37,984 nucleotides of DNA from a virus. A program made the position numbers and the translations under genes. Below are positions 6,679 through 30,632 of the stretch, piece by piece (position 1 is the first letter of the stretch; the number at the start of each line of letters is the position of its first letter). Under the pieces are notes generated by a model, which saw nothing but the letters and a program-made list of their open reading frames with translations, was not told the DNA's origin and did not search any database. The DNA lies in the IMG/VR virus record IMGVR_UViG_3300036781_000188, positions 1 to 37,984 of that record; one strand, given 5' to 3'.

Positions 6679-7958
6679 CATTCCCCTCCGTACAGGGCAC
6701 GCCGGTAACAACAGCTGCCGGCACTATCACCACCAGTATCGGTGTCAGCCTGCCGTCCAGCATCGCTGCCGGCGAAACGCTGTTCATCTACTGCGCTCTA
6801 ACCGCCGCACCTGGTGGGGACACCATTGCTACCCCAGCGGGGTGGGTGGGCAACGGCCCGTTTGGCGTCAATCGCACGGAGTATTTTTTTACCCGGGTCG
6901 CCACCGGGGCTGAAGGCGCGACTGTCACCTTCACCAAGACGGGCACGGCGGCTGCTACTCGCTGGGCAGCCTTCCGGGTTGCGTCTGCCGGCACGCTGTA
7001 CATATCGAGTGTGGCATCGGGATCGAGCGCGGCTCCTGATCCTCCGAATCTGACGATCGGGGCCGCAGCGGATTACCTTTGGTTCGCCGCTGATGCCTCG
7101 GGGGCGGCAGTCAACACGTTCCCGACGAACTACACCACTGGCGCTGTCACGCTCCCGAACAGCGCGGGGGGCATCGGGTACCGCCAACTAAACGCCTCTT
7201 CGGAAGACCCCGGCACATTTGCACTGTCGGGTTCGGCCGTATGGGATACGTTAACCCTCGCCTTCGGCCCCAGCGTGGCTCTGGCCAACTGGAACGCCGC
7301 GGGCGCGGGCTCTGTAAGCGCAGTAAGCGCATCGACCGCCCGCAGTGCATTGGCCGCGTCTGGCGTGGGAGCTGTGGCGGCTCAAGGCATAGCACTGGCT
7401 CGTGGTGCAATGAGCGCCTCAGGCATCGGCGCCGCCGCATGGCGCGGGACAGGCATTTCGTTCGTTGCCCTCGTCGCAGCTGGCGCGGGCGGTCTCGCGT
7501 TCGTCGGGGAACCGATCTACCAGACGCCGCCGCAACGCACGGCGACTGTCCCATTCATCTCCCGCTCGCTGCTTCTCAAGCGCGAAAGCCGGGAACAAAC
7601 AGTACCGACACGAGACAGAAGCGCAACCGTCCTCCCGGTCTCGCGCCTCGTCATCGTGCCACGCTATCCGAGGATCGACATGCCCCTGACGTGGTCAAGC
7701 AAAGACCCCGATGAGCTGCTGGACTACAGCCTCAACTGGTCCCAGGCCCTCGCTGGCGACACGATATCCACCTCCGACTGGGCAATCAGTGGCGATGGCG
7801 GCCTTGTCGAGAACCACGCAACGAAATCCTCGTCAGCGACTGTGATCTGGCTCGAGGATGGCGGCCTCAATCAGACCTACACCGTGACCAACACGATCGG
7901 CACCGCCGGCGGCAGGACGTTCCAGCAGTCGGTGAACATTCGGATACTGAGCAACTGA
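6675..7958 (+). CDS. Large virion surface protein with C-terminal Ig/BACON-like domain
   Basis: A 427-residue protein that starts with GTG 6675 overlapping the previous stop. Residues about 1-210 form a jelly-roll-like domain of the kind seen in phage decoration proteins (AGWVGNG..., then a WDTLTLAFG strand). Residues 215-275 are an Ala/Gly-rich low-complexity linker. After a basic stretch, the C-terminal 90 residues (SSKDPDELLDYSLNW ... VNIRIL) match a domain common on phage proteins, which often binds surfaces. It fits a head fibre or decoration protein. Assignment is by pattern only. Confidence 0.65.
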   Translation: MTFPSVQGTPVTTAAGTITTSIGVSLPSSIAAGETLFIYCALTAAPGGDTIATPAGWVGNGPFGVNRTEYFFTRVATGAEGATVTFTKTGTAAATRWAAFRVASAGTLYISSVASGSSAAPDPPNLTIGAAADYLWFAADASGAAVNTFPTNYTTGAVTLPNSAGGIGYRQLNASSEDPGTFALSGSAVWDTLTLAFGPSVALANWNAAGAGSVSAVSASTARSALAASGVGAVAAQGIALARGAMSASGIGAAAWRGTGISFVALVAAGAGGLAFVGEPIYQTPPQRTATVPFISRSLLLKRESREQTVPTRDRSATVLPVSRLVIVPRYPRIDMPLTWSSKDPDELLDYSLNWSQALAGDTISTSDWAISGDGGLVENHATKSSSATVIWLEDGGLNQTYTVTNTIGTAGGRTFQQSVNIRILSN

Positions 7959-7970
7959 AAGGGACTCCAT

Positions 7971-8758: not shown

Positions 8759-10067
8759 GCCCAACCCCGGCCAGCAGCGGGCAACCGCTCTCCTGACCGG
8801 CCCCCAACGTCACACCCTGCTCGCGGGAGGCGCGCGCTCCGGCAAGACGTTCCTGCTCACTCGGGCCGTGGTGGTCCGCGCGCTGAGAGCGGAAGGCTCA
8901 AGACATGCTATCCTTCGGTTTCGCGGCAATGCTGCCCGAGCATCGATCGGCTTGGACACTCTGCCCAAGGTGATGTCTGTCTGCTTCCCAGACGTGAAGC
9001 TAACGGAACATCGTCAGGATGGTTTCTTCGAACTGCCGAATAAGTCGCAAATTTGGGTTGGCGGCTTGGATGATAAGGAGCGCGTTGAGAAGATCCTCGG
9101 GCAGGAATATTGCACCCTCTATTTTAATGAGTGTTCGCAGATCCCTTACTCGTCCGTGATGGTCGCGCGCACCCGTCTGGCGCAGCAGGTCGATGGGCTG
9201 AAACAGCGGGCCTACTACGATCTGAACCCTGGCGGCGCGAACCACTGGACCAACCTCGAGTTCGGCAGGCACGTCGATCCGGGCTCCGGACAAGCTCTGC
9301 CCGATCCCGACAACTACCAGCGTGCGTTCATCAACCCCCAAGAAAACTCGGACAATCTATCTAGTGAGTTTCTGACCAGCCTGAGCAACCTGCCTACCAA
9401 GCAGCGCAAGCGGTTCTTTGAAGGCGAATACATTGAGGAGATCGACGGGGCGCTCTGGACCATCGAAAAGTTGGACCAGCACCGTGCGGATGTAAGCCCT
9501 GACCTGAAACGCATAGTTATAGCCGTCGACCCTTCGGGTTGCTCTGGCGACGAAGACACCAGGTCGGACGAAGTCGGCATCATCGTGGCAGGTCTCGGTG
9601 AAGATGGAGCGGCGTATATCCTTGAGGACTTGAGCGGGCATCACGGGCCGGCCGGCTGGGCTGCGCTTGTCGTCTCGGCTTACGAACGCTGGGGCGCGGA
9701 TTGCGTGATCGCTGAAACGAACTACGGGGGCGCCATGGTGAAGGAAGTCATCAAGGCGCACGGCGCGCACCTGCCATTTCGGGAGGTCAAGGCCTCGCGT
9801 GGCAAACATGTCCGGGCGGAGCCGATCGCCACGCTTTATTCACAGGGCAAGGTTCGCCACTTCGGTCGGTTCCCTCGGCTCGAGGATCAACTGCTGGCGT
9901 TCTCCGCGGCTGGCTATACCGGCGACAAGTCACCCGACCGGGCTGACGCAGCTGTTTGGGCGATCTCTGATTTGTTCCCGTCGATCGTTGCCACCAAGAA
10001 ATCATCGACAATGCCCAAACTCCAAGCCCCAGGCAATCTCGGTGCACAAGGATGGATGGGCCGATGA
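8745..10067 (+). CDS. Terminase large subunit (packaging ATPase and nuclease)
   Basis: A 440-residue motor that drives DNA into the prohead and cuts the concatemer. Walker A is GGARSGKT at residues 28-35 and the Walker B/catalytic carboxylate is YFNE at 126-129. The nuclease domain begins at AVDPSG (D262), with a later acidic pair in DRADAAVW near residue 408. Length is normal for the Terminase_6-type family. It overlaps the small subunit by 14 bases and precedes the portal by 21 bases. By analogy with P22, headful packaging is likely. Confidence 0.95.
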
Positions 10068-15041: not shown

Positions 15042-16328
15042 ATGGCTAATTCTCTTCTCACTACGAGCCGCATCACCCGAGAAGCCGTGATGCTGTTCGT
15101 CAACTCCAACGCGCTCCTTGCCAACGTCGATCGTCAGTACGATAGTGACTTCGGCAAGGCCGGCGAAAAGATCGGCTCGCAGCTTCGCATCCGGCTGCCC
15201 AACGACTACGTTCCGGTCAAGGGCCCGGCGGCGTCCATCCAGGACACCACTGAACAGCAGACCGTGCTGACGCTGGCCACTCAGGCCCACGTTGACGTGT
15301 CGTTCAGCACCGCCGATCTGCTGCTCAGCGTCGATGACTTCCGCGAAATCATCCTCAAGCCGATGATGAACAACCTCGCGGGCCAGGTCGCCGTCGATGT
15401 GATGGCCACGATGGAATACGGGTATATCCCGCTGCCCAACGTGAACGGCTCCTCGCCAATCGCCGCGCCGCTCACGGCCACGACCGGCGGCGTGTGCAAC
15501 ATCGCTCCGAACTACGCGGCCGATGGCACCACGCTCATCTCGCCCTCGAGCGGGACCCTGCTTGACGCCCGCGCCATTCTGGCCAACAACTCGGCACCGA
15601 GTGGCGCCCGCAAGCTGGTTTTCGATCCGCGCACCAATGCCCGTGTCGTCAACTCGCTGACCGGCCTGCTCAACCCTGCCACGAAGATTTCGTCGCAGTA
15701 CGAGTCCGGCCAGATGATGAGCGGCCTCGGCTACGCCGCCATCTTCGAAGACCAGACCGCCATCAAGCACACCACCGGCACCTTCACCGCCGGCACCGTG
15801 AGCACTGGCGGCCAGACCGGCTACAGCGTTACCACGAACGCCATCACCGGCACCCTGAACGTCGGCGACATCATCACCATTGCCGGCGTCAACGCCGTCA
15901 ACCGCGTGACCAAGCAGACCACTGGCGAGCTGCGCACCTTCGTGGTGACCGCCGCCGTCGCCAACGGTGGAACCACGATCAACATCTATCCCGCGATCGT
16001 GCCCCCGGTGAATGGCAATGCGGTCCAGTACCAGACCGTGACCGCCTCGCCGGCCAGCTCCGCCGCCATCACCATGATCATCGCCCCGAGCACCACGTAC
16101 CGCAACAACGTGGCCTACGCCCCGGAGTGCCTGACCATGGTCAGCGGCGACCTCCCGCTGCCCAAGAACGTCGATGCGGCCCGAGCCAAGTACTCCAATG
16201 TGTCGATGCGCATGGCCACTCAGTGGCAGGTGGGTACCGACCAGGAAGTGACTCGCATTGATACTTTATACGGAGCGCTCTTGACGCGCCCGGAATGGGG
16301 CGTTCGTGTGCCAGACATCATTAGCTAA
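15042..16328 (+). CDS. Major capsid protein, P22 coat (gp5)-like
   Basis: A 428-residue coat protein, against 430 for P22 gp5. The N-terminal ANSLLTTSRITREAVMLFVN, then ILKPMMNNLAGQVAVDV and the C-terminal block with ALLTRPEWGVRVPDIIS are typical of the P22 coat family, an HK97-fold protein with an added insertion domain. The middle (about residues 240-340) is Thr/Gly/Val-rich with DIITIAGVNAVNRVTKQ, as in the family. GAGGA at about 15028 is the ribosome site. The coat gene is followed by a homing-type endonuclease. Confidence 0.93.
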   Translation: MANSLLTTSRITREAVMLFVNSNALLANVDRQYDSDFGKAGEKIGSQLRIRLPNDYVPVKGPAASIQDTTEQQTVLTLATQAHVDVSFSTADLLLSVDDFREIILKPMMNNLAGQVAVDVMATMEYGYIPLPNVNGSSPIAAPLTATTGGVCNIAPNYAADGTTLISPSSGTLLDARAILANNSAPSGARKLVFDPRTNARVVNSLTGLLNPATKISSQYESGQMMSGLGYAAIFEDQTAIKHTTGTFTAGTVSTGGQTGYSVTTNAITGTLNVGDIITIAGVNAVNRVTKQTTGELRTFVVTAAVANGGTTINIYPAIVPPVNGNAVQYQTVTASPASSAAITMIIAPSTTYRNNVAYAPECLTMVSGDLPLPKNVDAARAKYSNVSMRMATQWQVGTDQEVTRIDTLYGALLTRPEWGVRVPDIIS

Positions 16329-16357
16329 CCTCTAGCTATTTGAGGCGATGCTTGATA

Positions 16358-16386
16358 CTCTCGGGGTGTGGAAATCATCCCGAGAG
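16358..16386 (+). promoter_or_regulatory. Hairpin covering the ribosome site of the endonuclease gene
   Basis: CTCTCGGG (16358-16365) pairs perfectly with CCCGAGAG (16379-16386) around a 13-base loop. The right arm includes most of GAGAGG, the ribosome site for GTG 16393. No T-run follows, so it is not a classic terminator. It would close the site on transcripts coming through the coat gene. Confidence 0.55.
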
Positions 16387-16392
16387 GCAACT

Positions 16393-17040
16393 GTGGGACA
16401 ATTAATTGATATTGTTGGGGAAAAGTACGGGCGCATGCTCGTTATCAGCAAGGCTCGTTCGCTGGACGGCAACGCAAGATGGAATTGCCGATGCGACTGC
16501 GGGACCGAGAAGGTTGTCTACGGCCAAGACCTCAGACGCGGCAAGGTAGTGAGTTGCGGTTGCCACAAGGCAGAGATGGCCAGCAAACGCGCCACGCACC
16601 GAATGAGTGGGCACCCGGCGCACAATTCATGGAAATCCGCGAAGGCGCGGTGCGAAGTACCGACTACCGAGGGATACGAACAATATGGTGGGCGCGGCAT
16701 CAAAGTCTGTGACCGCTGGCAATCGTTCGAGAATTTTTGGATCGATATGGGACCGACATGGCGTCCCAATCGGTCTTTAGATCGCCACCCAAATCAGGAT
16801 GGCAACTACGAACCCGGGAACTGCCGGTGGGCCACTGCCAGCCAGCAAGGACGGAACCGGCGGACGAACCACACGATACAGACGCCGTCTGGTCCGATGA
16901 TGATTGTCGAAGCGGCTGAGAAATATGGTCTTGATCCAAGGACCATTGCGGCGCGCATCCGCTACGGCTGGACGGACCCAAACGAGTTGGTAAAGCCGCC
17001 GATGAAGAAGACCGAATACCTAAAGCAGTACCGCAAGTAG
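16393..17040 (+). CDS. Free-standing homing-type (HNH-like) endonuclease
   Basis: A 215-residue protein. GTG 16393 is preferred over an upstream ATG 16348 because GAGAGG is at 16382-16387 and family members begin near the GEKYGRMLV block. A zinc-ribbon-like part (CRCDCG ... CGCH) is followed by EQYGGRGIKVCDRW, SLDRHPNQDGNYEPGNCRWAT-type residues and NRRTNHT, then a helix-turn-helix-like end (AAEKYGLDPRTIAARIRYGW). This is a common phage endonuclease family that spreads itself between genomes. It lies alone between coat and the next structural gene. By eye it is lower in GC than the coat gene. Confidence 0.8.
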   Translation: MGQLIDIVGEKYGRMLVISKARSLDGNARWNCRCDCGTEKVVYGQDLRRGKVVSCGCHKAEMASKRATHRMSGHPAHNSWKSAKARCEVPTTEGYEQYGGRGIKVCDRWQSFENFWIDMGPTWRPNRSLDRHPNQDGNYEPGNCRWATASQQGRNRRTNHTIQTPSGPMMIVEAAEKYGLDPRTIAARIRYGWTDPNELVKPPMKKTEYLKQYRK

Positions 17041-22301: not shown

Positions 22302-23619
22302 CATCGACACTTCATTCTACCCGAAATCCAACCCTAACGGCTTCCTCGACACGGCGGGCGGGTTTGTCGGGCTGGCCAATCAGGCTCAGCAAAATCAGCT
22401 TCTAAAGACCCAGAACAAGCAGACTCAGCTTGACCTCGTGAACAACCAGGTGGGGTCTCTGGTCAACGGCTTTTCGACGTTGGCCGCGATCCCGGGTCTG
22501 AACGCTCAGCATTTTGCTGACTTCGGCCAACGCATGGTGGACGAGGGCGTGATCTCGCCCGAGATATTCTCGGCCGAAATGAAGCAGGTACAGGGTACCG
22601 GCGGCGATCCTGACGCGCTTCGCGCGCTCGCTGGCAATTACGGTCTCCGCGCATTGGAGGCCGGCAAGCGCTTTGAAGTGCAATACGGCTCTCCGCAACT
22701 GATTGATCAGGGAAACGCGCTACTGCCGGTCACGACTTCGCCCCTGACTGGCATTCATCCGATGGGTGCCGCAATCCCAAAGACTTTGTCGCCAACCGAA
22801 CTCTCCGAAAGCGCAACGATAGGGACCACCCCAGAAGGGCAGCCGATTACCGGCACCAAAGGCCAGTTGCTGGAAAAGCAGGGGGTCAATCCACTCACGG
22901 CTCTCCCCAATCCCCAGCCGCTCAATCCGAACAACCCGCTTATGCCGGCTGTGCCCGCACAGCCAGGTGTAGTGACGACCTTGCCGGCCGGCGATGTGGC
23001 GGCGATGGAAGAGACCGGCCGCACCGCTGGCCAGGACCTCGCAGCCGCACGTATCCGTGAGACCAACTTCCAGCGCGATATCCTGCCGCTCACCAAGGCT
23101 ATCCCGGCGTTGGAAGCGCTGGGCAAGACCGGCACGGGCCCCGGAACCGAACAAATCAACGAAATCGCGTCGTTCCTGCAGTCGATGGGCGTGCCCGGCA
23201 TCGACGCCACGAAGGTGAAGAATTTCGATGAGGTGCGAAAGTACCTGTCGCAGTACGCTCAGTCGGGCGACCCCAGCACCAACGACAAGCTGGCCGCTGC
23301 GTTCGCCGCCAACCCCAGCGTGGGGGTATCGAACGCCGCAGCGGTGGACGTGGCGAAGACGGCGCTGGCCTTGCGCAAGCTGCAGAATGCCCAACTGATG
23401 GCGTTCGAGGATTCGGGTCTGCCGGAATCTCAGTACACGAAGTTTGCGGCGCAGTTCAATGCCGGCCAAGACCCACGAGCCTATGGTATCGACATGATGG
23501 ACGACAAGGCACGGGCCGCACTGATTGGCGATATGCAGAAACGAGCTGCGGACGACCCGGAGAGAGTTCGGTTTCTGACTTCTCTCCGGATGGCTAAAAA
23601 GCTGAAGTTGATCCCCTGA
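22294..23619 (+). CDS. Ejection / internal virion protein, P22 gp20-like position
   Basis: A 441-residue helical protein between two ejection proteins, in the place of P22 gp20. The N-terminal half is rich in Gln and Asn (ANQAQQNQLLKTQNKQTQLD) as in other internal virion proteins; there is a Pro/Asn linker around residues 205-230, and the C-terminal half has long charged helices. No catalytic motif. The overlap of eight bases with the gene before and the TGATGG overlap with the next imply coordinated synthesis of all three ejection proteins. Confidence 0.7.
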   Translation: MADIDTSFYPKSNPNGFLDTAGGFVGLANQAQQNQLLKTQNKQTQLDLVNNQVGSLVNGFSTLAAIPGLNAQHFADFGQRMVDEGVISPEIFSAEMKQVQGTGGDPDALRALAGNYGLRALEAGKRFEVQYGSPQLIDQGNALLPVTTSPLTGIHPMGAAIPKTLSPTELSESATIGTTPEGQPITGTKGQLLEKQGVNPLTALPNPQPLNPNNPLMPAVPAQPGVVTTLPAGDVAAMEETGRTAGQDLAAARIRETNFQRDILPLTKAIPALEALGKTGTGPGTEQINEIASFLQSMGVPGIDATKVKNFDEVRKYLSQYAQSGDPSTNDKLAAAFAANPSVGVSNAAAVDVAKTALALRKLQNAQLMAFEDSGLPESQYTKFAAQFNAGQDPRAYGIDMMDDKARAALIGDMQKRAADDPERVRFLTSLRMAKKLKLIP

Positions 23620-26117
23620 TGGCATCCAAAGCGCAAAAGTACCTCGAAGGCTTCGTTGCCCGCGGCTTCACGCCCGTGCAGGCAGCCGTGCTGGCGGGGA
23701 ATTTCGCTCAGGAGAGCGGGTTCAACCCCGAAGCCTACAACCCCGACGAAAATGCTTATGGCGGCTTGCAGTGGCGCCTTGACCGCAAGACCGGCCTCGA
23801 GAACTACGCCAAGGAGACCGGGCGCAAGCCTTCCGACCCAGAAGCGCAGATGGATTGGGTCGTCAAGGAAATGACCGGCAACGAAGCCGCCAACGCCGCG
23901 GCGTTCCTCGGTGCGCAGGACCCCTACACGGCCAACTCGTCGCTTAAACGATACATCAGATATGGCGACAATTCTCAGAACGCGCGGCTAGCGAACGCTT
24001 TGTCCTACATGGGCCAGACCGGCGATGCTGGCGGCAATGCGCTGATGGGTGCCCAGCCGGCGGAGGGCCCCGCCAACCCGCTGTTCGTCAACCCCTCGTT
24101 CGGCGGGGGCTCAATGCCTGGCGTGCCGCAGTGGCCAACCAGCCAGCCAGCTGCCCAGCCTGCCGCGGCAACGCCACAGGACGATAGCGCCCTGCTTGAT
24201 CAGTTCGCGCCTGCGGCAGCGCCTGCGGCAGCGCCCGCAACGGCCTCTGGCGCCCAGCCGGCCGGCCAGAGCGATGACGACCTGCTCAGTTCGTTCCTGC
24301 CGGGCGGCTCGGGCATTGACGTGCCGAGCGCAGGTGGCACTGCAGACGACGACCTGCTACGCTCGTTCATGCCATCGACGCCCGGGACGGGCGATGTCGC
24401 CATGCCGCCCGCGGGGCTCGTACCCGGATCCAAGGAATACGCCGATTGGGCGGTAGAGCAGGCGCGGGCGGGCAAGCGGCTGCCTCAGATCAGCGAGGTG
24501 CCGGAAGACCAACTTCCCCCGCCTACGGACCTGATGGACAAAATCCATGCCGGCGCAGCATCCTACATGGATGCCATGCCGGTAGTCGGGCCGGCGTGGC
24601 TGGACCTTGCTGAAAAGGCCAGGTCTGCCGTGCAGGGCATGCCGCTGGATTCCGTGAAGGCGGAAACCAAGGCGGCGCAAGAGGCTAACCCGATCACGTC
24701 CGGGGTCGCCGGGGTTGCCGGCACGGTGCTACCGCTGGTAGCCGGTGGAGCGACGACGCTTGGCGGCCGGCTGCTCGGGGTCACTGGCGGGCTGCCAGCG
24801 CAAATTGGCATGGGCGCTGCGTCCAATGCGTTGATCTCTGGTGCCGACACGCTCGCCCGCGGAGGTGACATACAGCAAGCAGGGCAAAACGCCCTTATCG
24901 GCGGGGCTATTGGCGGAGCCTTCCCCGCGGCAGGTGCCGCCGTCGGGAAGCTCGGCAATGCGCTGCTGGGCAAAACCTCCCCGGAGGTTGCGAACCTGGC
25001 CGAAGCCGCTATCAACAAATACGGCATCCCGGTCGGCCCGGGGCAGATCACCGAAAGCCCGATGGTCAAGTTCGCGGACTCGGTCGTCAACAAGATGCCT
25101 TTCAGCGGCGGCACGGTATCCAATGCCCAGCAGTCCGCTGCCTTCAACAAGGCGGTGGCCAACACATTCGGGGAGACGGCAGACAAGCTCACCCCCGACG
25201 TGATGGCGCGGGCTCGAGATCGAATTGGCGACGTATTCGAGAACGTGGCCGCCAAAACCCCCGTCATTGTGGCCGACCCGACCTTCGATCAGACCATGAT
25301 TGATGCGGTCACGAATGCCCAGATGAACCTCACCGACCAGCAGATGGGGCCCATCCTCAGGCAGTTCGACAACATCATCGGCAAATTCCAGGATGGCAAC
25401 GGCGCCATCACCGGCAAGGTCTACCAGGAGCTAACGAAAAAAGGGACGCCTCTCGATATCGCCCTCCATTCGTCGGACCCCGGCATCAGGGCGTTCGCGC
25501 GCCAGTCCCGCGAGGCTCTGGATGATGCCTTCGAGCGCTCCGCCCCGCCCGATGTCATGGGCGAACTCAAGGACGCCCGCTCCCAGTGGAAGGCGATGAA
25601 GACCGTCGAAGACCTCGTGGAGAAGTCTCCGGCGGGCGACATCAGCCCCGCGCTGCTGATGAACGCCGTGCGCAACTCCTATGACGGCATGGCCTATGGC
25701 GGCGGCGGCGACCTTGCTCAGCTGGCGAAGATCGGCCAGCAGTTCCTGAAGGCGCCCCCGTCGAGCGGCACGGCAGAACGCCTCGCTGTCATGAATATGC
25801 TGACGAAGGTCGGTGGGGCCGGCGGCCTAGCCGCAACCGCCGTAATGAACCCGGGCTCGCTCCCCATGATGGCGGCAGTAGGCGTTCCGACCGCGGCCGC
25901 ATACCTTGCCGCGGCTAAAGGTGGTGGCGCCCTGCTACGCTCGCCAGGCTTGGCAAACAAGCTGATCGGCAATTCCCTGGGCCGTGCGGCTGCGCCCGGC
26001 ACTCTATCGGGAGGCAACTTGCTACTGCGAGGGGCGTCGGGTGAAACCGCCCTGCAGAACGCAAGGCGGCCGGTAGAAATCACTGTAACTGGCGGCAATC
26101 CGCTGCTCGCTCAGTAG
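23619..26117 (+). CDS. Ejection protein with N-terminal phage lysozyme, P22 gp16-like position
   Basis: An 832-residue protein. Residues 1-130 are a phage tail-lysozyme-type domain (FVARGFTPVQAAVLAGNFAQ, ESGFNP with candidate catalytic Glu32, then DENAYGGLQWR), which would open the peptidoglycan for DNA entry. Residues 145-255 are Pro/Ala-rich with three DDxLLxxFxP-type repeats. Residues 345-420 are Gly/Ala-rich and hydrophobic, likely membrane-inserting, and the C-terminal 400 are mostly helical. Position and layout match P22 gp16, which in P22 has no lysozyme domain that I know of. The 3' end overlaps the convergent gene at 26111 by seven bases. Confidence 0.8.
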   Translation: MASKAQKYLEGFVARGFTPVQAAVLAGNFAQESGFNPEAYNPDENAYGGLQWRLDRKTGLENYAKETGRKPSDPEAQMDWVVKEMTGNEAANAAAFLGAQDPYTANSSLKRYIRYGDNSQNARLANALSYMGQTGDAGGNALMGAQPAEGPANPLFVNPSFGGGSMPGVPQWPTSQPAAQPAAATPQDDSALLDQFAPAAAPAAAPATASGAQPAGQSDDDLLSSFLPGGSGIDVPSAGGTADDDLLRSFMPSTPGTGDVAMPPAGLVPGSKEYADWAVEQARAGKRLPQISEVPEDQLPPPTDLMDKIHAGAASYMDAMPVVGPAWLDLAEKARSAVQGMPLDSVKAETKAAQEANPITSGVAGVAGTVLPLVAGGATTLGGRLLGVTGGLPAQIGMGAASNALISGADTLARGGDIQQAGQNALIGGAIGGAFPAAGAAVGKLGNALLGKTSPEVANLAEAAINKYGIPVGPGQITESPMVKFADSVVNKMPFSGGTVSNAQQSAAFNKAVANTFGETADKLTPDVMARARDRIGDVFENVAAKTPVIVADPTFDQTMIDAVTNAQMNLTDQQMGPILRQFDNIIGKFQDGNGAITGKVYQELTKKGTPLDIALHSSDPGIRAFARQSREALDDAFERSAPPDVMGELKDARSQWKAMKTVEDLVEKSPAGDISPALLMNAVRNSYDGMAYGGGGDLAQLAKIGQQFLKAPPSSGTAERLAVMNMLTKVGGAGGLAATAVMNPGSLPMMAAVGVPTAAAYLAAAKGGGALLRSPGLANKLIGNSLGRAAAPGTLSGGNLLLRGASGETALQNARRPVEITVTGGNPLLAQ

Positions 26118-26347
26118 TTCTTCAGCCAAACAGCCAGCATGATGCCAGCGCAGAACGCGAACATCGCCGCGACTCCGAACAGGATATCGGCGGTCATTTC
26201 TTGGCGATACACAAAGACGAACGCCAACACGGCGATCAAGACAACGAGGTAGTTTCTCGCCAACTTCGGGTCGTCCGGCAGACGCCAGCGGCCGGATTTG
26301 GGGTCGCGGATTTTGTAGTCGTTGGGGCCAAGGTCAAGATCGGGCAT
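26111..26347 (-). CDS. Two-helix membrane protein, superinfection-exclusion candidate
   Basis: A 78-residue protein. ATG 26347 is chosen since GGAG inside the end of the upstream gene is seven bases away; ATG 26374 is possible. A polar N-terminus (GPNDYKIRDPKSGRWRLPDD) is followed by two transmembrane segments (about residues 32-46 and 53-74). It is the last gene of a leftward operon after the Mnt-like and Rap1a/Tai-like genes. In P22 the leftward sieA membrane gene lies in this position, but no sequence match is claimed. A lysogen-expressed membrane exclusion protein is the most attractive role. Confidence 0.6.
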   Translation of the reverse strand: MPDLDLGPNDYKIRDPKSGRWRLPDDPKLARNYLVVLIAVLAFVFVYRQEMTADILFGVAAMFAFCAGIMLAVWLKNY

Positions 26348-26351
26348 TCCC

Positions 26352-26699
26352 TCACTCCGGGCACTTATAAGCATCGGCTAGCGTCCAAAACACCATCACC
26401 ACCGCAGACGTTTCAGGAGGCGTTGCGGGCGGAAGACGTGAGGTTATCAATGCCTGGCGCTTTTGCTCGGCGCTCACCCCGTCTGGCATGCAAGCGAGAT
26501 GCCCAGCGGAGAGCGCTTTAGCAGCTTCGGTGTACCCAGAAAGATACCCATAACAGAACTGAATGCCTGGGCTGTCATCGGAACAGAGTTCTATCAGTTG
26601 TCTTCCGGTAAGGTACTGGGCGCCAACTGATTGCATCGGCGAAATGACGCCGCCCGCCACCAGAGAGAACAGCAACCACAGGGCATTTCTTCGTCTCAT
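26352..26699 (-). CDS. Exported Rap1a/Tai-like protein
   Basis: A 115-residue protein with a Sec-type signal peptide ([17 protein letters not shown], cleavage expected near residue 27). The mature part follows the Rap1a/Tai immunity-protein pattern: [27 protein letters not shown] and a terminal YKC, with cysteines at 39, 49, 70 and 113 that could form two disulfides. Rap1a-type proteins neutralise a type VI peptidoglycan amidase effector in the periplasm. In this phage it could protect a lysogen or modify the envelope. It overlaps the Mnt-like stop by four bases. Confidence 0.7.
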
Positions 26700-26974
26700 C
26701 CTCGCCTCCTCATGGCTTCCTCGAACTCGCGCCGCACCTTCGGGTCGGTGGCGAGTGTGTCGTTAAGATGATCCAGAACCCGCATCATTTCTGAGATTAC
26801 GGGGCTCAGATCGGCCCCAGCAGGAGCATCGAAGCTGCTTTCTAGCCGGGCAACGATTTCGCTGTTCATCGAGCGACCGTTGGCTTTGGCGACCTCAGCA
26901 ATGCGGTCGCGCATGCCTTCCGGAAGGCGGAGATTGAACTGGTCTGAACCGCGGCTGGGGATGCGTGTCGTCAT
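26696..26974 (-). CDS. Mnt-like ribbon-helix-helix repressor
   Basis: A 92-residue protein with an Arc/Mnt ribbon-helix-helix domain: [20 protein letters not shown] then [14 protein letters not shown], almost the classic P22 Mnt sequence pattern, plus a C-terminal coiled-coil segment ([15 protein letters not shown]) that could make tetramers as in Mnt. ATG 26974 has no good ribosome site: GGGGAG lies 20 bases upstream. It faces away from the Arc-like gene across a 89-base region with overlapping promoters, and continues into two leftward genes. Likely represses the antirepressor in the lysogen. Confidence 0.8.
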
Positions 26975-27002
26975 TGCATGGTAGCGGCAACATACTCCCC
27001 GG

Positions 27003-27032
27003 TTGACATCAATGGTCTGTCGATCATATGAT
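27003..27032 (+). promoter_or_regulatory. Rightward promoter of the Arc-like / KilA-N genes
   Basis: TTGACA (27003-27008), an 18-base spacer and TATGAT (27027-27032) form a strong sigma-70 promoter. Start of transcription would be near 27039, 25 bases before the ATG at 27064. It is the counterpart of P22 Pant by position. Confidence 0.7.
27023..27032. promoter_or_regulatory. Palindromic operator candidate shared by two -10 boxes
   Basis: ATCATATGAT is a perfect ten-base palindrome. It contains TATGAT on each strand, so it is the -10 of both the rightward and the leftward promoter. A ribbon-helix-helix dimer or tetramer bound here would switch both off. A second short palindrome, GGTAATACC, is at 27038-27046. 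Confidence 0.55.
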
Positions 27033-27052
27033 ATGCCGGTAATACCAACCAA
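27023..27052 (-). promoter_or_regulatory. Leftward promoter of the Mnt-like operon
   Basis: On the minus strand TTGGTT (27052-27047), an 18-base spacer and TATGAT (27028-27023) face the rightward promoter. Transcription would begin near 27016 and give a leader of about 42 bases. The -35 has only the TTG in common with consensus, so it is weaker than the rightward promoter. Confidence 0.45.
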
Positions 27053-27063
27053 GGAGCAGGCGC

Positions 27064-27288
27064 ATGCCGCGCCATGACGACCAGTTCAACCTCCGCCTTC
27101 CGGAAGGCTGGCGAGAGGCGATCAAAAGCCAGGCTGTAAAAAGCCGGCGTTCTATGAACAGCGAAATCCTCGCCGCGCTTGAGAGTGTGGTGGAGCAGGC
27201 AGCGACGGGGAATGAGTTTGGCGACCAAGTCCCCGCCGCTGCCGATCAGAACGGAGCCTTGCAGGGCTCCATTCGCACCAACGGCTAA
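27064..27288 (+). CDS. Arc-like ribbon-helix-helix repressor
   Basis: A 74-residue protein with [18 protein letters not shown] and [16 protein letters not shown], the same ribbon and helix-turn blocks found in P22 Arc (53 residues) and in the divergent Mnt-like gene. The extra 20-residue tail is polar. AAGGAG at 27051-27056 is seven bases before the ATG. It is first in the rightward operon and 14 bases ahead of the KilA-N gene, as arc precedes ant in P22. Probably represses its own operon. Confidence 0.8.
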
Positions 27289-27302
27289 ACAGGAGCCATC
27301 GG

Positions 27303-28082
27303 ATGACCAATTCTATCACGACGTTGCCGCTCGTCTATAAGGGAGCTGCCATTACGGACAAGGGCGAGCTTCTCTCTCTTACCGATATGTGGCGCGCCGC
27401 TGGCTCCCCGGACGGACGCGCGCCGAATGATTGGCGCGTGCTAGTATCAACGACGGAATTCGCCAACCACGTCGCAGAGATTCTCAATGCCGGGAATTCC
27501 GGCAACGAACTCTTTAAGGTAACCCGTGGCGGCAAGGCGTCGGGCACCTTCGCTCACTGGCAGATCGGCCTCGCTTACGCCAAGTATCTGAGCCCTGAAT
27601 TCCACATGTGGTGCAACCAAGTTGTCCGCGAGCGCATGGAGGGGCACAAGGCCGTCGCCACACTTTCGCCCGATGTCATGGAGCTGATCCGTCGCGACGA
27701 CGGCATCTCGAGGATGCTCGCGCACAAGGTCACGGGGATCGAAGCAACCGTGCAGACACTTGCCGCCGCGGTGGCGGCTATCGTCTCCATCGTTCAGCCG
27801 CCTAGCGTCGGCGTCTACGTCACCGGCAAGACGGCTGGCGAAATTTGGCGCATTGCTGGCTTCCCGCGCATCCGTATCACCAGCTGGTTCAGCAACCGGC
27901 TGTGCGAGATGAACTGCCATATCGACGGCAACCGACGCAACCCGGTCGGGCTCGACCGCGCAAAACTGTTCGACCCCGATAAGGCGGAGAACTGGCTGAA
28001 GAACGGCGGCCGCGCGCTCGTTGAAGAGTACGTCAAAGAGCGGCAGGGGCAGAAGAAGCTCCGGCTCGTCTCTGCGAACTGA
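27303..28082 (+). CDS. KilA-N domain antirepressor-like protein
   Basis: A 259-residue protein with an N-terminal KilA-N DNA-binding domain (about residues 10-115): YKGAAITDKGELLSLTDMWR, NDWRVLVSTTEF, then GGKASGTFAHWQIGLAYAKY and LSPEFHMWCNQVVRERM. A coiled linker (about 130-165) precedes a C-terminal domain (TAGEIWRIAGFPRIRITSWF...), perhaps for binding a repressor. AGGAG lies upstream. Its place after the Arc-like gene matches P22 ant, though P22 Ant has a different N-terminal domain. Antirepressor role is inferred from module and family. Confidence 0.8.
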   Translation: MTNSITTLPLVYKGAAITDKGELLSLTDMWRAAGSPDGRAPNDWRVLVSTTEFANHVAEILNAGNSGNELFKVTRGGKASGTFAHWQIGLAYAKYLSPEFHMWCNQVVRERMEGHKAVATLSPDVMELIRRDDGISRMLAHKVTGIEATVQTLAAAVAAIVSIVQPPSVGVYVTGKTAGEIWRIAGFPRIRITSWFSNRLCEMNCHIDGNRRNPVGLDRAKLFDPDKAENWLKNGGRALVEEYVKERQGQKKLRLVSAN

Positions 28083-28094
28083 GGGGAGGACACA

Positions 28095-28526
28095 ATGGGC
28101 CAATCTCTCAACCGCCGCGCCGCGTTCACAGGCGCTATCGTCTCCGCCGCCGCCCTCGCGATGCCTGTCGCGGCGGCAGTCCGCCCGTCCAATCTGCAGG
28201 GTCTTGTCGATAAGCTGCGCGACGATGCGCAGGCCATCGACCCCACCATCACGAAAGTCTGGGTCTACTACGACGAGTTGATGGGCGGCCCGCGGGGTAA
28301 CCGCGTCTCGCAGCTCTATTTCGAGCGCGACGGCGCGCCGTTCAAACGCGCCGCACTAGCCGCCGACAAGGTGGACAACCTGCAGGCGGATTTGCGTGCC
28401 GCCCTTCACCGCGACCGTGGTGGCGAGTGGATGATTTGCGCAGTCCGTCGCGATGGGCCGGTGGATACCGAGTGGTTCGGCGTTCCCGAAGGCTACGGCC
28501 TCAACAAGGACGGCACGCCCGTCTGA
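28095..28526 (+). CDS. Tat-exported hypothetical protein
   Basis: A 143-residue protein with a twin-arginine type signal peptide: LNRRAAFTGA followed by a hydrophobic Ala-rich segment ending AMPVAAA, cleavage near residue 28. The mature part is charged and alpha/beta, with VWVYYDELMGG, SQLYFERDGAPF and EWFGVPEGYG. GGGAGGA is upstream. It is in the operon after the antirepressor-like gene. Export suggests an envelope or periplasmic effect on the host. No family recognised. Confidence 0.6.
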   Translation: MGQSLNRRAAFTGAIVSAAALAMPVAAAVRPSNLQGLVDKLRDDAQAIDPTITKVWVYYDELMGGPRGNRVSQLYFERDGAPFKRAALAADKVDNLQADLRAALHRDRGGEWMICAVRRDGPVDTEWFGVPEGYGLNKDGTPV

Positions 28527-28606
28527 GAAAACCAGAGTTACGGCGGGAGTTCTCTTACTCAACCCCGCGCCGCTATTCTTCTGAGGCAAGCGCCCTGACT
28601 CAGACT

Positions 28607-28633
28607 GCGGGAAAATGATAGGACTTTTCCCGC
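28607..28633. repeat. Perfect 9-bp inverted repeat
   Basis: GCGGGAAAA (28607-28615) and TTTTCCCGC (28625-28633) are separated by TGATAGGAC. It stands in a 162-base gap between the Tat-exported protein and the next gene. The A and T runs lie inside the stem, so it could terminate transcription in both directions or be a protein-binding site. The rest of the gap shows nothing clear. Confidence 0.6.
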
Positions 28634-28688
28634 AAATCCTCGTGGGTAAAAGGCCCCATTCTTCCCCAGCGACGTTTGGTTCAACATC

Positions 28689-28952
28689 ATGAGCGACATA
28701 CCTGAAGACGTGATGACGGCGGCTCAAGCGGCAGCCTATGCCGTCGAAGGCACCTGCGATGACGGGGCGATTACGAGCGTGAATGGCGTCCGGGTCATCG
28801 CCAAGGCCATCCTTGCAGAGCGTGAGCGCATCGAACGTGAAGGTCTGCCGGGCTGGATTAGGGCCAACGTTTCCGCCTCCGCTCTGGACAACGACTATCT
28901 CAAGACCCTGAGTCAGGGCTTCGCTAGCAAAGTTAGCATGAATCCGCTATAA
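28689..28952 (+). CDS. Small phage protein, AKAILAERER paralogue
   Basis: An 87-residue acidic protein whose first block (MSDIPEDVMTAA) and central AKAILAERER match the protein at 312-578; the DNA around these blocks is also close (GCCAAGGCCATCCTTGC is identical). No strong ribosome site precedes the ATG. The C-terminus differs (LDNDYLKTLSQGF). It stands alone between an inverted repeat and a terminator. Function unknown. Confidence 0.6.
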   Translation: MSDIPEDVMTAAQAAAYAVEGTCDDGAITSVNGVRVIAKAILAERERIEREGLPGWIRANVSASALDNDYLKTLSQGFASKVSMNPL

Positions 28953-29147: not shown

Positions 29148-30632
29148 TTGGCCACTCTTCTTCCTTTGCCGAAAATCCAAATCCTCGACAGTAACGGGAA
29201 CCCGTTGGAGGGCGGCACGATCTTCACGGCTATCCCGAACACGATGACGCCGAAGGCAACGTATCAGGATGCAGACTCCCTAATACTGAACACAAACCCT
29301 ATTGTTCTGGATAATTCGGGAGAGGCCATCATTTATGGCAGCGGCATCTACCGATTTATCATCAAGGACAGCGCCGACAACTTGATTTATGATCAGCTAA
29401 CCGCCGACACATCGACCGGCGGTCTCGCCAATGGCGGCGTATCAACTGGCACTGCGAATGCTCAGGTACTGTCGGCCTCGAGCTTCAGCCAGCAGGATGG
29501 TCAGGCGATCACCTTCATCGCCGGCTTCACCAACACCACGGCCATGACGGTCGCCCCTGGCGGCGGCTCGGGCATACCGGTACTGCTCGATAGCTCGACG
29601 GGCCCGATCCCGCTCTCCGGCGGTGAAATCGTGCAGGACAACGAAGTCCTGCTTGTCTACGAGGCCGCCCGCGGCGCCTTCCACCTGGTCAATCCGACCC
29701 CCGGCAATTTCACCGGGGCGACCATCTCGAACGCTACCATCACCAGCTCCGATATCAACACCAGCTCCATCGTGCTGAAGCAGAGCACGGACCCCACGCC
29801 GACGGCTGAAGGTGATATGCAGTGGTCCACGCTGTTCGACAACTTCAAGGTCGGCTCGGGCGCTGCAACCAAGAGGTTCTGGGCCGGGGCTTCGCCGGGC
29901 GCCATTACCGGTTGCACGATTGCCAACAACGCGTCGGACGCCACCAACGACATCGACTTCGGAAGCGGCACCTGCTCGGATAGCACTGCGGCGTTCTACA
30001 TGACGCTGGGCTCCACGCTGACCAAGCGCCTCGATGCGACATGGGCGGCGGGGAACAACCAGGGCGGCCTCTTCTCCGGCTCGATTGCCAATGCCACCTA
30101 TCACTGCTTCATCATCATGCGACCGGATACCGGCGTGGTGGATGCTGGGTTCGATACGAGCCCTGTCGCAGCCAATCGGCCGGGGAGCTACACCTATTTC
30201 AGGCGAGTTGGATCCATCGTGCGGGAGAGCGCCACCATCAAGGCGTTTCACCAGGATGGGGATTATTTCTACTGGGACGTGATGACTCTCGATGACACGG
30301 TCACCACCCCGGGCACGTCTACGATCACACTCACCGTCCCGACCGGCATTTCCGTTTCCGCGCTGTTCAACGGGACGTTTACCGACAGCTCTGGCTCGAG
30401 CGGCTTCAACGGGGCGCTGTTTACCGCGCTGGATACGCCGAACACTTCGCTCAGCTCAAACGCCTTCAGTTTCGGCAGCGCCGTCGGCGGAAACGGCGAC
30501 AACCTCTTCCTCAGCGGCTCGATGCAGGTTCGCACTGACACCAGTGGGCAGGTGAGGAAGACGATCGGGGTCACCCCGACAGCCTTCGGTGTGGCGACTT
30601 ACGGCTGGATTGACCGGCGCGGTCGCACGTAA
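29148..30632 (+). CDS. Tailspike / tail fibre protein with head-binding N-terminus
   Basis: A 494-residue protein, TTG start at 29148 with GAGGAA at 29134-29139. Residues 1-90 (PKIQILDSNGNPLEGGTIF, PKATYQDADS, NTNPIVLDNSGEAIIYGSG, YRFIIKDSADNLIYD) are the head-binding domain used by P22-like and many other podovirus spikes. The rest is Thr/Ser/Gly-rich beta structure ending in a receptor-binding region (GSIVRESATIKAFHQDGDYFYW). No endorhamnosidase-like active site could be judged by eye. It follows the immI-like module as gene 9 does in P22. Confidence 0.8.
   Translation: MATLLPLPKIQILDSNGNPLEGGTIFTAIPNTMTPKATYQDADSLILNTNPIVLDNSGEAIIYGSGIYRFIIKDSADNLIYDQLTADTSTGGLANGGVSTGTANAQVLSASSFSQQDGQAITFIAGFTNTTAMTVAPGGGSGIPVLLDSSTGPIPLSGGEIVQDNEVLLVYEAARGAFHLVNPTPGNFTGATISNATITSSDINTSSIVLKQSTDPTPTAEGDMQWSTLFDNFKVGSGAATKRFWAGASPGAITGCTIANNASDATNDIDFGSGTCSDSTAAFYMTLGSTLTKRLDATWAAGNNQGGLFSGSIANATYHCFIIMRPDTGVVDAGFDTSPVAANRPGSYTYFRRVGSIVRESATIKAFHQDGDYFYWDVMTLDDTVTTPGTSTITLTVPTGISVSALFNGTFTDSSGSSGFNGALFTALDTPNTSLSSNAFSFGSAVGGNGDNLFLSGSMQVRTDTSGQVRKTIGVTPTAFGVATYGWIDRRGRT

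Follow-up and report, generated by a model that had tools for sequence, protein, structure and literature searches.

The record of phage P22 lists, in this order, sieA and orf59a, both leftward, followed by mnt, arc, the antisense RNA sar with its promoter inside ant, ant itself and gene 9. Passages of the epsilon34 paper name this P22 region the 'ant moron' and describe it as variable among P22-like phages (PMC2629481); ant translation is blocked by sar according to a passage of a review (PMC12197685), and in a passage on the P22-like phage UAB_Phi20, in which arc is the gene named, sar inhibits translation from the late-promoter transcript (PMC12111858). Here we analyze a locus of the same kind, with a KilA-N gene at the position of ant, in the virus record IMGVR_UViG_3300036781_000188 (positions 1 to 37,984); this whole stretch of 37,984 nucleotides (nt) is called the window below. 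We take the phage to be a P22-type podophage with an integrase, and the module to sit in its late operon. Like P22 immI, the locus combines divergent Arc-family repressors, an antirepressor-position gene after the arc-position one, an antisense promoter-like site just inside that gene and leftward accessory genes, and it is placed between the counterpart of gene 16 and a tailspike-like gene. It differs from P22 in that KilA-N replaces Ant, the left repressor has Arc-type contacts, distinct operators cannot be recognized, and the predicted antisense hairpin has a 6-nt loop and lacks a clear U-tract. We read the locus as an immI-type anti-immunity switch in the late operon, with the KilA-N gene silenced by an antisense RNA, and put the probability of this reading at roughly two in three. 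The P22 feature that is best supported here is the sar-like antisense element, which had been missed by an earlier sequence-only reading of the same DNA. New here are the antisense site, the paired contact residues with the words shared between partners, and the Arc-type contacts of the 'Mnt' protein.

The two small genes of the switch (Table 1) encode ribbon-helix-helix (RHH) proteins, as the sequence-only reading had proposed: both carry the QFNLR and RSMNSEI blocks, the coordinates and strands agree, and their Pfam Arc scores are far above the cut-off of 20.4 bits. No other Arc match occurs in the contig. PHROGs assigns Arc-like families to both, and a sequence search matched both to the solved Arc, Mnt and AmrZ (1arq at E 3.7e-6 and 1mnt at E 3.8e-5 for the left protein, 1mnt at E 8.7e-5 for the right one). 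The AlphaFold model of the left protein (predicted local distance difference test, pLDDT, 76.7; predicted template modelling score, pTM, 0.41) has two C-terminal helices past the RHH part; in P22 Mnt, the C-terminal helical region serves tetramerisation. In a Foldseek search with this model the top rows were AmrZ (E 2.9e-3) and Arc (E from 0.038 upwards), with probability 1.00; no row had E at or below 0.001, and Mnt was absent from the best 50 rows. At the three positions that we take, from the Arc and Mnt literature, to be the DNA-contact residues, both window proteins have Gln-Asn-Arg, the Arc type, whereas P22 Mnt has His-Asn-Arg; the left protein is therefore Mnt by position only.

The KilA-N gene starts 14 nt after the right RHH gene, in the same direction. 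The Pfam scan of its product found KilA-N (cut-off 23.8 bits) and no P22_AR_N domain, in agreement with the earlier suggestion that a KilA-N N-terminus stands in place of that of P22 Ant; PHROGs annotates its family as 'transcriptional regulator'. The sequence supports an immI-like switch as regards its genes, their order and direction, and its location. The names 'Mnt' and 'antirepressor', used in the sequence-only reading, are positional, since the contacts of the left protein are Arc-type and neither P22_AR_N, nor HTH_3, nor an operator in the control region was found. The place was said to be exactly that of immI; the module does lie between the ejection gene and the tailspike-like gene, but two small open reading frames (ORFs; 28095-28952) precede the latter.

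Recurrence of the module was analyzed by searching viral and genome contigs as well as phage records with the KilA-N protein and an alignment of its relatives, the viral and genome match lists consisting of the best 80 loci per search. This gave 194 sequences including the window; three of them (L033-L035) entered through an ejection-protein search. Thirty two of the 194 sequences had an Arc match, and in at least 22 distinct modules, the window included and copies of one contig merged, KilA-N is preceded by a divergent Arc pair. It follows Arc directly in 15 of these 22; in the other seven (L037, L129, L138, L167, L169, L170 and L172, of which L167 and L172 are near-copies) the two are separated by some 260-420 nt that contain a small gene. 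Seven genome contigs have an Arc match (L038, L040, L045, L047, L050, L053 and L111), six bearing names that we take to be alphaproteobacterial and one being Acidovorax.

Two of these modules belong to named phages. In Paracoccus phage vB_PkoS_Pkon1, genes p51-p53 are a divergent Arc pair followed by a KilA-N protein 45% identical to that of the window, with an antisense promoter-like site at +15. The phage differs in being a siphophage with the module between tail genes, and its record annotates no antisense RNA; it also has a separate CI/Cro region and an integrase, and the main text of its paper does not mention KilA. In Acetobacter phage phiAX1 the module (PhiAX1_530-570) directly follows a lysozyme-like gene and contains a divergent Arc pair and KilA-N, but here the small gene between Arc and KilA-N bears the antisense site (score 9.6, at +12). 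With Pkon1 a siphophage and the phiAX1 module placed behind a lysozyme-like gene as in the window, the cassette is found in more than one type of phage. These comparisons show that the KilA-N switch with a divergent Arc pair is a recurrent unit.

Widening the search to any divergent Arc pair yielded 113 pairs, 92 of them unique; a class-wide Arc search found a match in 18 of 385 genomes, and one new divergent pair from it (L198) was used. In these loci the 'Mnt' and 'Arc' roles outside KilA-type modules were set by a profile, which reversed P22 in the contact-column, other-side and gap/overlap counts; P22 was dropped from the position-bin count and judged by hand in the top-site count. The gene after the Arc-position partner could not be identified in six of the 92 modules, and L243, with a 1-nt gap, was placed in neither the gap nor the overlap class. 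With proteins counted under every family matched, the 56 gap-type genes include 14 KilA-N, 13 ANT, six Rha, six Bro-N, two ORF6N, one AntA and one P22_AR_N, and the 29 overlapping genes six KilA-N, five ANT, three P22_AR_N, three Bro-N, two AntA, two Rha and one ORF6N; the KilA-N share of the former is inflated because KilA-N queries were used.

The range of families in this slot bears on an alternative in which the KilA-N protein regulates phage or host genes by binding DNA and does not act as an antirepressor, the Arc pair controlling a moron-type regulatory gene. KilA-N is described as a DNA-binding domain in a passage of PMC10434257, the cassette is found in different phage contexts, and the C-terminal part of the KilA-N model has a weak structural likeness to small DNA-binding domains; the best Z was 4.2, and as no structural row exceeded it we make no claim on the fold. 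The slot, however, also holds several families named antirepressors, P22_AR_N and ANT among them, names that are annotation and not tests, and we consider this alternative doubtful.

The antisense element is suggested, first, by its position. The antisense promoter-like site of the window lies 7-34 nt inside KilA-N and P22 Psar 6-34 nt inside ant. A promoter scan of 3.2 kb gave three sites against 0.7 expected, the rightward and the antisense site being among them. When the roughly 570 antisense positions of a 600-nt region were ranked by one fixed score, the top score fell at the KilA-N start in ten of 15 loci with directly adjacent Arc, but in none of six loci with a gene between Arc and KilA-N; in P22 it fell at the start of ant. 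In such modules with an intervening gene, it is this gene that carries the site, with a score of at least 6 in five of seven (L037, L167, L169, L170 and L172, not L129 and L138). At positions +5 to +30 a score of at least 6 was reached in 14 of 19 Arc-adjacent KilA-N genes, in none of six where Arc is farther away, and in 7.1% of 764 other ORFs.

Over all pairs, the genes after the Arc-position partner score in 35 of 57 gap modules (34 of 56 without P22) compared to two of 28 overlapping ones (Fisher 1e-6), and on the other side of the pair in nine of 61. After removal of near-copies at 80% identity, 32 of 54 modules score at +5 to +30, while the other antisense bins give 0-19%, the bins inside the gene 4% and the sense strand 9%. 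When the first codons of these 54 modules were recoded synonymously, the mean score dropped from 6.81 to 4.14 (Wilcoxon 1e-9); taken singly, 18 of the 54 had p at or below 0.05. A later sample, collected with another Arc-type query and cleared of pairs present in the first one, showed the signal at +5 to +30 in 11 of 29 modules and in 0-3 of 29 in the 13 other bins (binomial p 3e-8), as well as in one of six overlapping modules and in one of 18 on the other side. An N-terminal motif [HYND][SN][TI], which was picked after inspecting the sequences, is enriched in signal-bearing genes of different families (20 of 49 versus seven of 72).

The second line of evidence is RNA folding. In the 95 nt 5' of the start codon folding is better on the antisense than on the sense strand (mean z -2.57 versus -1.35, n=34, p 9e-7); in comparison stretches z is -0.35 inside the gene and -0.33 in overlapping modules (n=29). 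For the window the values are -2.66 and -0.67, the folded sense stretch being 27 nt longer. The 10-bp stem found in the 3' end of the Arc-position gene could be aligned in six modules: 91.7% of its cells are paired on the antisense strand (as high in none of 500 shuffles) and 73.3% on the sense strand, the outer four pairs giving 87.5% and 41.7%, respectively, in a comparison that favours the antisense strand for one of the six sequences because the stem was defined from the antisense fold of the window. Six pairs changed on both sides on the antisense strand (as many in three of 500 shuffles). An Rfam search of 26000-28600 returned a single sub-threshold match, RF00481 (20.8 bits versus 65, E 0.78). 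Taken together, position, recoding and folding make a sar-like antisense RNA at the KilA-N start a well-supported prediction, apparently general in such modules. A second hairpin type, GCCGCG-N6-CGCGGC with the Arc stop codon in the loop, occurs near the place of the window hairpin in L036, L047 and L117.

Several observations weigh against our reading. The antisense site is not the top one in five of the 15 Arc-adjacent loci (L008, L050, L111, L118 and L141), and that of the window is borderline with respect to synonymous recoding (p 0.05). Among KilA-N genes without Arc, 28 of 112 also reach a score of 6, above the share of other ORFs. L036, L047 and L117 have a nearly identical site, so that kinship in the sample was reduced and not removed. 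Gap modules without the promoter-like site fold somewhat well, too (antisense z -1.80, n=22); covariation is equal on the sense strand, with six pairs each, the strands differing only in how many of the cells are paired; and the antisense hairpin is followed by no U-tract, its tail not being U-rich, unlike a textbook terminator. The KilA-N model is poor (pLDDT 58.3, residues 1-97 being mostly of low confidence), and no HTH_3 match for a prophage repressor was found in the contig, which is cut at both ends. Finally, the control region contains one repeated operator word against 3.8 expected (p 0.965) and no palindrome above chance (p 0.49). The P22 control region, with its two annotated distinct operators, shows no significant excess of word repeats either (p 0.11).

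Some of these points could be explained by an immI-like switch without antisense RNA, in which the promoter-like signal and the hairpin are by-products of AT-rich gene starts and of a sense-strand structure controlling KilA-N translation. The weak -35 box of the window (TAGACG), its recoding value and the missing U-tract would fit such a switch, as would the core 6-bp hairpin, which is equally paired on both strands (94.4% of cells each) and covaries on both. Against it, the peak is limited to the antisense strand at +5 to +30 and recurs in the later sample, the signal is rare at overlapping gene starts and at other ORFs, the outer four base pairs are mainly antisense, and antisense folding exceeds sense folding; we therefore regard it as unlikely. 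As for the KilA-N genes without nearby Arc, antisense control may extend to modules with other repressors.

Within the 92 divergent Arc pairs, partner identity was tested column by column against shuffled partners. The middle contact column is identical between partners in 28 pairs versus 7.1 expected (z 8.6) and the first contact column in 39 versus 16.4 (z 6.6); the third is Arg everywhere except in one pair with Asn and Lys (z 10.5, p 0.009). The best column after these had z 4.2. Both variable contact columns lead after clustering, separately in 23 KilA-type and 66 other pairs. Among the 35 pairs of the later sample this pattern recurs in the first contact column (12 identical versus 4.7 expected, z 4.5), the middle one is not significant (four versus 1.9, z 1.9, p 0.076), and a non-contact column, column 5, ranks second (z 3.0).

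The sequences between the partners were analyzed for words, with L281 left out of the count because of bad coordinates. Repeats of six-letter words exceed those in shuffled sequence in 71 of the 91 intergenic regions. Loci sharing the triad of the left repressor share more words, even at 30-50% identity elsewhere (0.15-0.17 versus 0.08), with p-values that assume independent locus pairs, which the pairs are not. By eye, TGCCACAC goes with His-Arg-Arg, TACCA..TGGTA with Gln-His-Arg, and TGACGCC/GGCGTCA with Arg-Thr-Arg or Arg-Ser-Arg. As partners tend to share contact residues and words repeat between them in most relatives, these data suggest that both repressors of a pair often read the same operators, a pattern that the DNA of the window itself does not show. 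A Pseudogemmobacter locus (L050) has two divergent Arc pairs in tandem (7181-7960 and 9175-9685); their triads, QNR/QAR and RTR/STR, differ and so, by eye, do the repeated words between the genes. The broader proposal, that a sar-like RNA is a general, hitherto unannotated part of divergent Arc modules whatever the antirepressor family and that many pairs have co-evolved towards common operators, as an RHH counterpart of CI/Cro and unlike P22 with its two separate specificities, seems to us finely balanced. An antitoxin-like or maintenance role of the RHH pair, with no connection to lysogeny, is very improbable: RHH antitoxins are structural relatives (the FitA-like RHH profile gives 21.5 and 22.6 bits, under the cut-off of 27), but toxin families are absent from the ten window proteins scanned, the Arc scores are far above their cut-off and the module recurs with antirepressor-type genes.

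If our reading of an immI-type switch with antisense silencing is correct, the module could work as follows; the regulatory roles, the antisense transcript and the KilA-N target are what we infer. Two paralogous Arc-family repressors face each other. In the lysogen, the left, Mnt-position repressor would shut the rightward promoter and would be made together with the two downstream genes, possibly for superinfection exclusion. After infection, before the repressor accumulates, the rightward promoter would yield the right repressor and the KilA-N protein, which may disable a prophage repressor encoded elsewhere, and the right repressor would afterwards close the region down. The antisense RNA would start inside the first KilA-N codons and end past the hairpin in the 3' end of the Arc gene, covering the KilA-N ribosome-binding site and blocking translation, in the way sar acts on ant in P22. 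Late read-through would otherwise lead to translation of KilA-N, as the cassette is surrounded by late genes of the same direction. Any antirepressor at this place would need such silencing, which fits the range of families in the slot.

Table 1. Features of the switch and its surroundings, in window coordinates.
Feature	Position	Strand	Evidence and remarks
DNA-ejection protein, gp16 position, N-terminal phage lysozyme domain (left boundary)	23619-26117	plus	phrog_26400 E 4e-50; PF18013 E 4.5e-22
87-aa (amino acid) putative membrane protein, end of leftward group, P22 sieA position	26111-26374	minus	hydrophobic segments by eye
Rap1a-like protein	26352-26699	minus	PF18602 E 3.8e-9, 37.4 bits (cut-off 27.7); signal-like N-terminus by eye
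Mnt-position RHH gene	26696-26974	minus	ATG at 26974; 92 aa; Pfam Arc 76.2 bits
Divergent control region	26975-27063		between the two RHH genes
Rightward promoter-like site, TTGACA-18-TATGAT	27003-27032	plus	promoter scan; 11/12 match
Arc-position RHH gene	27064-27288	plus	74 aa; Pfam Arc 52.8 bits
Predicted sar-like antisense RNA	27246-27303 (approximate, inferred ends)	minus	would cover the KilA-N ribosome-binding site to the start codon
Hairpin, 10-bp (base pair) stem and 6-nt loop	27249-27274	minus	in 3' end of Arc-position gene; 6-bp core at 27253-27270
KilA-N gene, presumed antirepressor	27303-28082	plus	259 aa; Pfam KilA-N 51.8 bits; phrog_129 E 2.8e-27
Antisense promoter-like site, TAGACG-16-TAGAAT	27310-27337	minus	TG extension; in KilA-N codons 3-12
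Small protein, Tat-like signal	28095-28526	plus	NRRAAFTG by eye; directly 3' of KilA-N; module membership uncertain
Tailspike-like protein (right boundary)	29148-30632	plus	weak match, 7eeq tailspike head-binding domain, E 4e-4

Two leftward genes (26111-26699) separate the left RHH gene from the ejection gene; the start of the Rap1a-like one overlaps the stop of its RHH neighbour. The 87-aa protein has no PHROG and no Pfam match above the cut-off. As the two genes occupy the place of P22 orf59a and sieA, their products are candidates for superinfection exclusion. Downstream, the first of the two small ORFs after KilA-N encodes a protein with a twin-arginine (Tat)-like signal and no Pfam or PHROG match. 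As a crude pattern, Tat-like N-termini are found in the gene after the Arc-position repressor in five of 86 modules, with L246 doubtful, and in eight of 35 later ones (loci with such N-termini are L129, L224, L250, L275, L329, L330, L334, L341, L347, L348, L358 and L367). The contig is incomplete at both ends, with an open frame at base 1 and an integrase-like ORF, identified by eye, running off the right end. Farther upstream, the ORF 16348-17040, just 3' of the ORF 15042-16328, shows HNH-endonuclease-like motifs by eye.

RNA control of antirepressor synthesis is known from other phages. The P1/P7 c4 antisense RNA resembles the element proposed here in this respect, according to a passage of the review cited above (PMC12197685), and an abstract-level account has the small RNA 24B_1 acting on the antirepressor gene of phage 24B. 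Passages of PMC2701414 deal with Bro-Xre-type pairs of repressor and antirepressor, and for a Psychrobacter phage PMC10434257 tabulates an Arc-like and a KilA-N gene in divergent orientation, with no link drawn between them in the passages concerned. In the titles and abstract openings of the open-licence literature searched, a sar-like RNA is described for P22 and P22-like phages and not outside them. To our knowledge, P1/P7 c4 is not paired with Arc-type repressors, and its layout is different.

If the antisense element is indeed a standard part of Arc-type modules, antisense silencing of an antirepressor in a late operon would be a widespread solution, and in many phage genomes it would be a hidden promoter, and not protein function, that constrains the N-termini of such genes. 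The paired contact residues offer data from which a recognition code for DNA binding by beta-sheets could be derived, and they make the question of shared versus separate operators directly testable.

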